Positions 1,655 to 10,880 of a stretch of DNA of 10,880 nucleotides are shown piece after piece. The stretch is from contig SKYY01000061.1 in NCBI GenBank assembly GCA_007127665.1, positions 1 through 10,880 of the forward strand, in the 5' to 3' direction. Source of the stretch: Balneolales bacterium (lineage in GTDB: Bacteria; Bacteroidota; Rhodothermia; Balneolales; Natronogracilivirgulaceae). Every line of letters starts with the position of its first letter. Position 1 is the first letter of the stretch. The notes below the pieces were generated by a model. That model was not told where the DNA came from. It searched no databases and saw only the letters and a program-made list of their open reading frames with translations. A program made the translations under genes and the position numbers.

Positions 1655-1766
1655 GAATCAAAAAATGAAATGTCCATGACCGGGCTGGAGCCCGGACACA
1701 CAGGGCTATGATTAAAACGTCATGGGCATTCTATCTGACCTAATTAATCCTAAATCTTAAACAGAT
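1655..1766 (+). repeat. Structured leader repeat, locus A (P1 hairpin plus P2 start-codon helix)
   Basis: This fills most of the ald to M28 peptidase gap. P1 is an inverted repeat with arms AATGTCCATGAC (1669-1680) and GTCATGGGCATT (1719-1730), complementary apart from one G-U wobble. Its 38-base loop has an apical hairpin CCGGGC/GCCCGG (1680-1695). Two bases after P1 lies P2: ATCTG (1733-1737) can pair with CAGAT (1762-1766), which includes the first two bases of the peptidase start codon. The same arrangement occurs at 10684-10783, with near-identical P1 arms, the shared ATTCTATCTGAC (1728-1739), and 25 bases (26 there) from that motif to the ATG. A copy of ATGAAA also stands immediately before the left P1 arm (1665), 100 bases before the true start. 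It could be a 5' UTR regulatory structure or a small mobile palindromic repeat. Confidence 0.7.
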
Positions 1767-3420
1767 GAAACAAACCTATTTCTCTTTTCTGTCCGTAACC
1801 ATTTTGTTTGCAGCGATCGCTTGCGAAACGCCCCGCGAGCCAGAAGTACTGCCCGGACCGCTCAGCGAGCGGCATATCATGGAACATATCGAAGTGCTGG
1901 CATCCGATGAATTCGGCGGCCGCACCCCCGGCACCGTATATGAAGAAATGACGGTGGCCTATGTCATCAGCCAGTTTGAAGAGCTTGGCGTTGAACCAGG
2001 GATGCCCGATGGCTCCTTCACGCAGGACGTGCCGCTCAAAGGCCAGAAATCGCATAATGTGAATGTCTCGCTGCACGCCGGTGACCAGCAGGCCCGCCTG
2101 ACCTACCTTGATGATGTCATGGCCTGGCCGGCGCATACGCAGCGGTCGGTTGACGTGCGCGATGCCGAAATGATTTACGTCGGTTACGGCATTGAGGCCC
2201 CGGAAGAGGACTGGGACGACTTCAAGGGAGCGGACGTATCCGGAAAGGTGCTTGTTTTCAAGAATTTCAATCCGGTAACCCATGAGGACCGGTTTGATGG
2301 CGGCAACCGCCTCTACTACGGGCGCTGGACCTACAAATTTGAACAAGCAGCCGCAAAGGGCGCCCTTGGAGCGCTGATCATCCACACCGACGAGACGGCC
2401 GGTTACGGCTGGGATGTGGTGCGCAACAGCTGGAGCCGGGAGCGGCTTTTCGTTTTCGAGGATGAGGAGCCGGAGACACAATTCAATGGCTGGCTGACCC
2501 ACGACCGCAGCCGCGAGTTGTTTGAAATGGCCGGACTCAACTTGCAGGACATGCTGGATGCCGCCGAAAGCCCGTATTTTGAGCCCATCCCACTCACGGG
2601 AGTGCGCATCAATACCTCCGTGGATGCCGTTTACAGAAATATCGCCGGTCAGAATGTGGTTGGAAAAATTCCGGGATCGGATCCTGAGCTGGCAGAAGAA
2701 GCCGTTGTTTTTTCCGCACACCATGATCATCTCGGCATCGGCGATCCGGTGGAAGGCGACTCCATCTTCAACGGTGCCTGGGACAACGCCAGCGGTGTGA
2801 GTTTGATGCTCAATCTGGCGCGGCTCTACCAGATGGAGCCCGAAGAAATCCGTCGCACGCTCTATTTTGTCTCGGTGACCGCCGAAGAATCCGGCCTGCT
2901 GGGTTCCCGCTATTTCGCCGAAAACCCACCGGTGCACGCCGGCAAAATCTCCGCCAATATCAACCTTGATGCCACCAACATCTTCGGTGAAACAAAAGAT
3001 TTTGTGGCTATTGGATACGGCAGGTCGGACATCGACGAGATCCTTGCTGAAGAAGCCGAGCGGCTCGGTCGCATTGTCAAACCGGATCCGCGTCCGGAGC
3101 AGGGCATCTACTACCGCTCCGACCACTTTTCCTTCGCCCGGGTCGGCATACCTGCGCTCTACCCCAACCCTGGCACACAATTTGTGGACAAGCCGGAAAA
3201 TTTCAACGAGCAGGTGGCCGAGTACAGAAACAAGATTTATCACTCGGTCCACGACCGCATCCACGACTGGTGGGACCTCTCCGGTGCCGTTGAGGATCTG
3301 AAGTTGATTTATCGGGTTGCCCTTCGCATAGCCAACGCAGATGAAATGCGGCAATGGACACCGGGTGATGAGTTTGAGGAGGCCCGGAAGCGTGCACTGG
3401 AAGAAGCCTCGCAGCTTTAA
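1765..3420 (+). CDS. Secreted M28-family zinc metallopeptidase, lipoprotein
   Basis: A 551-residue aminopeptidase-type hydrolase, predicted to be exported and lipid-anchored. Residues 1-20 form a signal peptide ending FAAIAC with C20 as the probable lipidated cysteine. Residues about 130-240 look like a PA-type insertion (IYVGYGIEAP, KGALGALIIHTDE). The peptidase domain follows with all expected M28 residues: SAHHDHLG (H319 zinc ligand, D321), GAWDNASG (D340 bridging ligand), VTAEESG (E374 general base, E375 ligand), NLDAT (D402) and RSDHFSF (H454). These bind two zinc ions and remove N-terminal residues from peptides in characterised members. The start MKQTYF follows the repeated leader and gives the signal peptide directly. 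The gene may be first in an operon with the membrane protein 96 bases downstream and the HiPIP. The true peptide substrate cannot be deduced. The opposite strand is open for 569 codons but is a shadow. Confidence 0.92.
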   Translation: MKQTYFSFLSVTILFAAIACETPREPEVLPGPLSERHIMEHIEVLASDEFGGRTPGTVYEEMTVAYVISQFEELGVEPGMPDGSFTQDVPLKGQKSHNVNVSLHAGDQQARLTYLDDVMAWPAHTQRSVDVRDAEMIYVGYGIEAPEEDWDDFKGADVSGKVLVFKNFNPVTHEDRFDGGNRLYYGRWTYKFEQAAAKGALGALIIHTDETAGYGWDVVRNSWSRERLFVFEDEEPETQFNGWLTHDRSRELFEMAGLNLQDMLDAAESPYFEPIPLTGVRINTSVDAVYRNIAGQNVVGKIPGSDPELAEEAVVFSAHHDHLGIGDPVEGDSIFNGAWDNASGVSLMLNLARLYQMEPEEIRRTLYFVSVTAEESGLLGSRYFAENPPVHAGKISANINLDATNIFGETKDFVAIGYGRSDIDEILAEEAERLGRIVKPDPRPEQGIYYRSDHFSFARVGIPALYPNPGTQFVDKPENFNEQVAEYRNKIYHSVHDRIHDWWDLSGAVEDLKLIYRVALRIANADEMRQWTPGDEFEEARKRALEEASQL

Positions 3421-4302: not shown

Positions 4303-4338
4303 GAAACCCCGGGTTCCGTAATCAGGGGTTTCCTTTTT
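4303..4338 (+). terminator. Intrinsic terminator after the HiPIP gene (first of two)
   Basis: GAAACCCC (4303-4310) pairs with GGGGTTTC (4325-4332) and is followed by CTTTTT. It starts 26 bases after the HiPIP stop codon. An alternative pairing CCCTGA/TCAGGG overlaps it. Confidence 0.75.
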
Positions 4339-4351
4339 CACTTTTAATATG

Positions 4352-4398
4352 AGCCTGTTGCAATTACGGAAACCCGTTGCGACAGGCTTTTATTTTAT
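4352..4398 (+). terminator. Intrinsic terminator after the HiPIP gene (second of two)
   Basis: AGCCTGTTGCAA (4352-4363) pairs with TTGCGACAGGCT (4377-4388) over 12 positions with one G-U wobble and a 13-base loop, followed by TTTTATTTTAT. The T-tract is on the plus-strand side only, so it serves the HiPIP transcript rather than the convergent channel gene. The rest of the gap (4399-4492) has a 13-base direct repeat, TTTATCCGGAGAA, at 4394-4406 and 4460-4472 and a small GGAGAA/TTCTCC hairpin, but no clear terminator for the minus-strand gene. Confidence 0.85.
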
Positions 4399-4492
4399 CC
4401 GGAGAAGTTTTTTTCTCCCGAGTTCAGGTGATAAGTGAATCACAGCTCTGGAGAAAACATTTATCCGGAGAAAAAGTGATTGGAGCTCAGTA

Positions 4493-10563: not shown

Positions 10564-10591
10564 AATCTGTTCATCACAAGAACAAACAGAT
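10564..10591 (+). repeat. Vestigial leader repeat unit, P2 helix only
   Basis: ATCTGTT (10565-10571) pairs with AACAGAT (10585-10591), whose end overlaps an ATGAAA at 10590. This repeats the P2 helix seen before both real genes, but with no P1 inverted repeat upstream (that side is the end of the GGT-family gene). The ATG here opens only a short frame. Confidence 0.45.
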
Positions 10592-10686
10592 GAAACATTC
10601 ATGGCCGTTATTTCGGACACACAGGCACATGATCACTTCCATGAATGCTCCATGTGTCCGCTTGAATCGAAAGTTTTAAACACATG
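10590..10686 (+). repeat. Structured leader repeat, locus B unit 1 (divergent copy)
   Basis: P1 arms are CATTCATGG (10596-10604) and CCATGAATG (10639-10647), a different sequence from the other copies but still perfectly complementary and at the same place after ATGAAA. The loop shares CGGACACACAGG with locus A. P2 is CATGTG (10651-10656) with CACATG (10681-10686), a compensated version of the ATCTG/CAGAT pair in the other units. A further pair, CGGACACA (10614-10621) with TGTGTCCG (10653-10660), would interlock with P1 and compete with P2. The ATG at 10590 opens a 29-codon frame beginning MKHSWPLF that ends TAA at 10677-10679; I see no reason to call it a gene. Confidence 0.6.
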
Positions 10687-10783
10687 AAATGTCCATGACC
10701 ATAGCCCGGTCACACAACAGTATGTTTAAAACGTCATGGACATTCTATCTGACGATATGAATCAAAAATTTTTAAACAGATGA
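10684..10783 (+). repeat. Structured leader repeat, locus B unit 2, ending at the start of the last gene
   Basis: P1 is a perfect 12-base inverted repeat, AATGTCCATGAC (10688-10699) and GTCATGGACATT (10733-10744), with a 33-base loop that can form TGACC/GGTCA (10696-10712). P2 is ATCTG (10747-10751) with CAGAT (10777-10781), overlapping the start codon at 10780. The ATG positions of successive units (10590, 10684, 10780) are 94 and 96 bases apart, so this is a tandem array. The unit matches locus A (1665-1766), about 9 kb away, in P1 arms, in ATTCTATCTGAC and in the spacing to the gene start. Confidence 0.7.
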
Positions 10784-10880
10784 AACGTATCATCATCGAT
10801 ATCGATATTCAGAACACCCTCGACATTGTAAAAAAGCGAAAAGGCCGGCTCTCGGCCTTTTTCGCCAAGTATCTCATCAA
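10780..10880 (+). CDS. 5' end of an unrecognised gene, Ile-rich N-terminus (cut by window edge)
   Basis: The ATG directly after the tandem leader repeats opens a frame of 33 codons that is still open at the window end: MKRIIIDIDIQNTLDIVKKR, then KGRLSAFFAKYLI. I do not recognise the family. The first 17 residues are rich in isoleucine (seven codons, mostly ATC by residue 33) and there is no signal peptide. A terminator-like hairpin (10836-10865) lies inside the frame; since the frame stays open through it, a normal gene is more likely than a leader peptide, but both are possible. The start context AAACAGATGAAA is identical to that of the M28 peptidase gene. Confidence 0.6.
   Translation, partial: MKRIIIDIDIQNTLDIVKKRKGRLSAFFAKYLI
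10836..10865 (+). other. Terminator-like hairpin inside the last reading frame
   Basis: GCGAAAAGGCCG (10836-10847) pairs with CGGCCTTTTTCGC (10853-10865) around a 5-base loop, with one bulged T. Taken as the shorter stem AAGGCCG/CGGCCTT followed by TTT it resembles an intrinsic terminator. It starts 57 bases after the ATG. It may be a coincidence of coding sequence or an attenuator. Confidence 0.35.

Follow-up and report, generated by a model that had tools for sequence, protein, structure and literature searches.

A structured repeat in front of two genes

The same hairpin-bearing segment of about 100 nt stands directly before the start codons of two genes on a Balneolales contig, and the question that this locus raises is whether the segment is a regulatory leader of the mRNA or a mobile repeat that carries a start-proximal end of its own. 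The window, that is, the whole stretch of DNA analyzed (10,880 nt, contig SKYY01000061.1), belongs to a draft genome of 1.41 Mb that is 51% complete. Direct reading revealed three copies of the unit, one of them single and two in tandem, with the following features (a slash marks a junction).

1665..1764, + strand: unit 1, single copy, between the 5' UTR and the M28 peptidase start codon (1765); cmsearch 111.4 bits, E 1.3e-18
1669..1680, + strand: unit 1, P1 5' arm AATGTCCATGAC; from sequence and covariation
1680..1695, + strand: unit 1, P2 hairpin CCGGGC-TGGA-GCCCGG; from sequence, with compensatory changes at 3/5 pairs in the 25-unit set and 5/5 in distant units
1719..1730, + strand: unit 1, P1 3' arm GTCATGGGCATT; from sequence
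1732..1737, + strand: unit 1, guide TATCTG, the 5' half of P3, pairing with CAGATG at 1762-1767; G/C compensation in 182/212 units
1762..1767, + strand: unit 1, 3' junction CAG/ATG, the 3' half of P3, with the start codon (1765-1767) inside; from sequence and covariation
1765..3420, + strand: lipoprotein-like M28 peptidase gene behind unit 1; Pfam PF04389, E 1.6e-42
10590..10683, + strand: unit 2, first of the tandem pair, a diverged copy; cmsearch match 10592-10687, E 5.4e-11
10651..10656 and 10681..10686, + strand: unit 2, guide CATGTG and 3' junction CAC/ATG; from sequence
10684..10779, + strand: unit 3, second of the tandem pair; cmsearch E 1.6e-15
10688..10699 and 10733..10744, + strand: unit 3, P1 arms AATGTCCATGAC and GTCATGGACATT; from sequence
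10746..10751 and 10777..10782, + strand: unit 3, guide TATCTG and 3' junction CAG/ATG; from sequence
10780..10880, + strand: open frame behind units 2 and 3, 33 codons, beginning MKRIIIDIDIQNTLDIVKKRKG.., cut by the contig end; no match in a Pfam search

The repeat search of the window aligned unit 1 with unit 3 at 79% identity over 73 nt (1689-1761 and 10703-10775). The initial annotation had drawn attention to shared and complementary P1 arms around loops of 38 and 33 nt, and to a spacing of 25 and 26 nt between ATTCTATCTGAC and the ATGs at 1765 and 10780, all of which direct reading bore out. The repetition exceeds chance, as the 21-base pattern GTCATGGNCATTCTATCTGAC with up to 3 mismatches was found at 38 places in the genome, while the reversed pattern used as a control was found at none. 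One point of the first reading required correction: a unit opens with ATGAAATG or a similar 5' edge and runs up to the ATGA that follows it, which means that the "start" motif is present at both edges and not on the gene side alone. Elsewhere in the window, positions 4338-4473, between a HiPIP-like and a TrkA/ion-channel gene, gave a weak Rfam His_leader match (30.7 bits against a gathering score of 49), which is probably due to chance or to a terminator.

Three helices are conserved by compensatory change

Units measure about 90-105 nt and consist of one hairpin (P1 with an inner P2), the guide Y-A-T-S-T-G, an A/T-rich linker of about 20 nt, and an end of the form ..AAACAS placed before ATGA. 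P1 comprises about 10-12 bp, P2 is nested in it, and a third helix, P3, is formed by the guide just 3' of P1 with the junction C-A-S/A-T-G, start codon included. In an alignment of 25 units from the host genome, 91.8% of cells were paired and 29 cells had changed on both sides, compared with 8.9 in shuffles; P1, P2, and P3 all covaried, and the loop ACACACAGGAGCATGATTA was conserved. A set of 22 units (21 distinct) from distant genomes, aligned by fitting to the model and with a bias in its favor, had 89.7% of cells paired and 77 double changes, against 25.1 when shuffled and 3-12 in slid controls, with P1 changed on both sides at 9/10 pairs. P3 cells were paired in 94.0% of cases in the 25-unit set and 96.8% in the distant set, and the variable position of P3 (S) was G-C or C-G in 182/212 units. 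Wobble pairs in P1, read on the gene strand, gave G.T to A.C ratios of 13:1, 12:11 (set A3), and 20:6 in three sets, and these patterns give no pointer to the opposite strand as the folding strand.

Rfam returned no match to a unit of the window at E<=1. Across 18 loci, its sole overlap with a unit was MIR827_2 (E 0.61, below the gathering score, on the other strand, at the unit start in L324), which we took as chance. In L006, L008, L017, L023, and other loci, a second joint form, ATGAACCGAAGGTCGCGAAGCGCTATG, takes the place of ATGAAATG between tandem units; CCGAAGG and GCGAAGC within it resemble what we take to be very stable DNA mini-hairpins.

Copy number and distribution

The initial annotation had proposed that a covariance model built from the units be run against the host and related genomes. 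Such a model, built on the 25-unit alignment, found 87 matches at E<=0.001 in the half-complete host genome, the 25 training units included. In the relatives search (up to 68 candidates scored per genome), matches were found in 20 of 59 genomes, the host among them. Sixteen of the 19 other family members had from 2 to at least 68 matches each, and three (G015, G016, and G018) had none; outside the family, 3/39 genomes had 1 to 3 matches. A deeper search counted 142 units in G007, 89 in G012, 75 in G013, and 39 in G017. Some distant relatives carry units as well: 10 of 296 genomes in a phylum sample matched, again counting the host, and eight of these carriers lie outside the order; these counts are lower bounds, with up to 13 candidates scored per genome and strict filters.

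At least 119 stretches of GTDB contigs contain the exact core, and the core pattern was absent from the viral contigs searched. Among the 80 matches listed, all came from Balneolales/Balneolaceae metagenome genomes except one contig titled Candidatus Nealsonbacteria (PWOE01000024.1). Over 7,092 nt, this contig matches a Balneolales contig (L259) at 99.93% identity; it has the same two units and is most likely misbinned, not a product of transfer.

Empty orthologous sites and identical copies point to mobility

The orthologous M28 gene lacks the unit in all nine congeners (9/9). In three of them (L090, L091, and L101) the 5' flank aligns base by base, placing the unit exactly between the 5' UTR and the ATG: the empty site reads ..AATCCAAAAAA/ATGAAACAAATC and the filled site ..AATCAAAAA-unit-ATGAAACAAACC. 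Among 10 M28 orthologues looked at outside the genus, one, in G011, carries its own unit close to the start. Further genes, housekeeping genes included, likewise have orthologues with and without a unit, as judged by eye, since the pattern expression used also flags diverged units as empty. A comparable pair was found in a distant family, where G340 reads ..GGCAAATATTAA/ATGAAAGAACCT (TAA/ATGAAAGAA) and G147 reads ..GGCAAATATTAAC-unit-ATGAAACAGCCT (TAAC-unit-ATGAAACAG).

Units identical over 91-97 nt precede differing sequence within each of G000, G013, G007, and the isolate SKNT. G007 has two such sets, the frames behind them being 269 and 185 aa in one and 335 and 261 aa in the other, unrelated in both cases; in G000, one member of the identical pair runs into a further unit. 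The genes behind units are functionally mixed, with topA-like, thrC-like, and metK-like genes and lipoproteins among them (names assigned by eye). The initial annotation had preferred a 5' UTR control element and had mentioned a small mobile repeat as the alternative. As to origin, the data favor the latter, given the empty orthologous sites, the identical copies before unrelated genes, the tandem arrays, and the array ends that lie off gene starts (22/81; see below); a control role is possible, as pairing of the start codon is predicted more often behind units (0.80 versus 0.51).

In L286, GCAATGAAAATTATAAACAGATGAAAATT looks like a unit shrunk to its two edges, perhaps by decay or as an excision scar.

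ATGA as the probable target, with a preference for start codons

In 120 loci (L140-L259; 1.26 Mb), with gene models from a simple purpose-made caller that assigned 86% of bases as coding, 59 of 81 array ends lay on gene starts and 22 did not. Control ATGAAA sites without a unit, from which 970 sites in coding frames and 262 element-like sites had been left out, were starts in 127/335 cases (Fisher odds ratio, 4.4; P value, 2e-8). Since array ends favor starts even beyond noncoding ATGAAA sites, purging of insertions from genes explains the start preference only in part. Among the 19 array-end units listed for distant genomes, 13 precede frames of at least 128 aa (L323, which continues into a further unit, was left out). 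In G006, G008, and G009, the unit at the trpB-trpA locus stops at an ATGA situated 8 nt ahead of the trpA start codon, as seen by eye; because this ATGA is off the start codon, the target is the sequence itself. The constant distance to the start, which had been regarded as the key feature, thus gives way to insertion at ATGA, on the basis of the empty M28 sites and these trpB-trpA units.

On the 5' side of first units, the flank tends toward C(-3) A(-2) S(-1) before ATGA when compared with start codons without a unit. Guide and hairpin foot, read together as TTCYATSTG, complement CASATGAAA at every position but one, which would explain the choice of target.

Simple target duplication as a rule is not supported: among 163 units (49 of the 212 lack a recognized 5' edge and were left out of edge counts), 7 had edges that were not both ATGA, and the two edges differed in 7/7. 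The one contrary case is the trpB-trpA unit of G007, outside the 163-unit set, which has TTGA on both sides, as target duplication would give. Apart from this unit, none of the observations that the initial annotation had named as speaking against its leader (lack of a relation to start codons, target duplications, and lack of further copies) was made.

The S base of the 5' flank tends to equal the guide base, i.e., to be unpaired with the guide, in 45 versus 23 of 68 first units and 51 versus 15 of 66 inner units. A stricter selection, with 85 first units, gave only a P value of 0.07 for the association between flank base and guide base. Pairing of the guide with this second end is possible by sequence as an extension of P1, with S unpaired in those 45/68 first and 51/66 inner units. 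Of 23 directly adjacent unit pairs, 15 have different end bases. Our guesses at the cause of the flank-base bias are avoidance of a longer, deletion-prone palindrome or mispairing of the guide with the upstream junction.

Relation to known elements

Literature searches on start-codon insertion, PATE/IS605, Bacteroidetes REP, and Balneolales repeats, made in open-access literature with limited terms, gave no described element of this kind, in agreement with the initial annotation. The palindrome-associated transposable elements (PATEs) of Haloquadratum, which include 52-bp "terminal-only" forms, have neither terminal inverted repeats nor target duplication according to the cited parts of their description (PMC3119063). 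The same parts allow a comparison on several points: like the units, PATEs have a near-terminal palindrome, a target of 4-5 bases at one flank, and an edge-palindrome distance that is longer on one side, are too short for a transposase, and show strain-specific insertions, and they have been mobile in genomes with mostly broken IS200-type genes (PMC3119063). Terminal inverted repeats were not recognized in the units either. The units differ from PATEs, as far as those parts describe them, in their ATGA/start-codon target, tandem arrays, an inner helix and loop kept across genera, and a single palindrome that makes up the whole element.

In the portions of PMC8266576 drawn on here, REP/BIME sequences with TnpA-REP (REPtrons) resemble the units in having a palindrome with a short conserved foot motif, high copy number, and tandem arrays; REPs are 20-50 nt and mostly intergenic, whereas the units are about 100 nt, abut start codons, and have a foot motif that pairs with the junction. 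The units lack the GTAG-type foot motif of REPs, their foot on the strand opposite to the gene being CASATRG (A2 consensus). In contrast to REPtrons, 15 of the 20 unit carriers of the relatives search yielded no Y1-type gene. The cleavage sites of IS200/IS605 elements are set by DNA complementarity to guides 5' to the palindromes, as stated in the same portions (PMC8266576), and on the strand opposite to the gene the units likewise place a guide 5' of their palindrome, with the junction as the putative cleavage site. They differ from IS200/IS605 in having no transposase, a single palindrome and guide that would serve both ends, and a target at the start codon. Rickettsia palindromic elements and MITEs, as covered in the cited sections of PMC10969869, are also small repeats near or in genes that are presumably moved in trans, with intergenic or in-frame intragenic sites described there, compared with the start-codon insertion of the units. 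We rate the units as being of the PATE/REP kind, with features not described before in the open-access literature that was searched with few terms.

Search for a mobilizing enzyme

The Y1 transposase profile PF01797 was searched as a whole, so that TnpA-REP is not separable from other Y1 proteins in the following counts. At E<=0.001 it matched in 5 of the 20 unit carriers that the relatives search had turned up and was absent from the other 15, among them G017 (98% complete, 39 units). Matches were found in 7 of the 8 distant carriers, the carrier without a match being G217 (100% complete), and each of the three unit-free family members has 2-4 PF01797 genes. Broader Y1 profiles matched none of 18,462 frames of the loci examined, and Y2 (PF04986) matched in 1 of 59 genomes, one without units. 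Most carriers are draft genomes, and drafts often miss multicopy transposase genes.

No copy with a transposase inside was recognized in about 2 Mb of loci. Pairing of 95 lone 5' with 271 lone 3' arm matches gave 10 candidate autonomous copies, whose P1 arms would enclose a gene; by eye, none was convincing. The Y1 gene of one carrier (G001, L111) was dismissed on inspection as having other ends. When 50 Y1 loci were searched with the model, two (L355 and L351) had a unit match at E<=0.01. In L355 (G225; 1471-2150), a Y1 gene is followed within about 200 nt by a reverse-orientation unit and by other short palindromes (CCCCTTCGGGG); this gene was not retained as the cognate mover, given those other palindromes.

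A guide-directed insertion model and its alternatives

We interpret the units as copies of a nonautonomous mobile element of about 90-105 nt that inserts at ATGA(AA) by a guide logic of the IS200/IS605 kind, and place the probability of this reading at about 0.6. The moving form would be the single strand opposite to the gene, in the order TCAT (target) ^ linker - guide - palindrome - TCAT ^. The gene-side ATG would be the target, which is kept, and the other ATGA the element's own, from which absence of duplication and growth in tandem would both follow. The guide, 5' of the palindrome on this strand, may pair with either cleavage junction, so that one palindrome and one guide would serve both ends in the manner of IS200/IS605; the use of only one palindrome is unusual. 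Guide and hairpin foot would lead the element to start codons followed by AAA. Insertions there would survive, since they would leave the start codon intact and supply a new translation start region in the form of the element's A/U-rich end. A point against guide-target pairing is the S base of the 5' flank, which mostly equals the guide base, a tendency that simple pairing does not predict. The Y1 genes of 7/8 distant carriers speak for the model. Counting against it are the absence of PF01797 from 15/20 relatives-search carriers and from G217, the failure to recognize a copy enclosing a transposase in about 2 Mb of loci, the P1 wobble patterns, and the TTGA-flanked unit of G007.

The guide could also recognize the target while the repeat is moved by another kind of enzyme, such as an HUH protein too diverged for Pfam, a recombinase, or an RNA-mediated process on the gene strand. 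The lack of a Y1 gene in 15/20 relatives-search carriers and in G217, the failure of broader Y1 profiles to match anything in the examined part of the carrier genomes, the surplus of G.T relative to A.C when sets A2 and A4 are read on the gene strand, and a start-codon preference that exceeds sequence alone all fit such a mover. However, no candidate protein was found, Y1 genes are present in 7/8 distant carriers, the draft state of most carriers may hide transposase genes, and the strand asymmetry vanishes in A3 (12:11); we consider this alternative rather unlikely. Integron-like cassettes without genes (attC arrays) would share tandem units of about 100 nt with a hairpin and inverted end motifs. 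The attC core motif R''/R' is RYYYAAC/GTTRRRY, but RYYYAAC followed by GTTRRRY occurs in 0/163 units on either strand, and the units are spread across many contigs and joined directly to start codons, which makes attC arrays extremely improbable.

A true cis-regulatory leader RNA (a riboswitch, thermometer, or protein-binding leader) whose start codon is sequestered by P3, spread by gene duplication and kept by selection, would account for three covarying helices, the conserved loop ACACACAGGAGCATGATTA, the start codon within P3, the enrichment at gene starts, and the orientation shared with the gene. Predicted pairing of the AUG also fits: the probability was 0.80 behind units (n = 78), against 0.68 when the guide was reversed and 0.51 at 93 unit-free starts. 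Yet neighboring species lack the unit at the same genes, housekeeping genes included, the functions behind units are mixed, 22/81 array ends are not gene starts, and no Rfam model credibly matched the units examined. We regard such an origin as quite unlikely; as a second role of a mobile element, leader-RNA control, with damped or regulated translation, is plausible from the predicted folds.

Consequences for the genes behind the units

In the mobile-element reading, P3 would cover the start codon in the mRNA as a by-product of insertion and may damp translation. As a rule, mobile elements either stay clear of gene starts or destroy them, whereas the present element prefers starts and leaves them usable. 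Dozens of genes in one genome, some of them housekeeping by sequence, are probably under the same new leader, and gene pairs with and without a unit constitute natural experiments on translation initiation in Balneolales and Bacteroidota. Should the mechanism be true, a DNA guide would here select, in vivo, a target that has a meaning for the cell. A broader proposal can be made tentatively, and we think it possible but doubtful as a whole: that these are phylum-wide mobile elements homing to start codons through a guide complementary to CASATGAAA, moved by a not yet recognized enzyme other than a canonical Y1, and rewiring translation by leaders that cover the start codon, often in tandem arrays in which the junction base tends to alternate.

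A minor observation concerns the leaders themselves: units opening with ATGAAATGTCCATGA have a tiny frame at their start (MKCP stop or similar), so that these leaders carry very short upstream frames.
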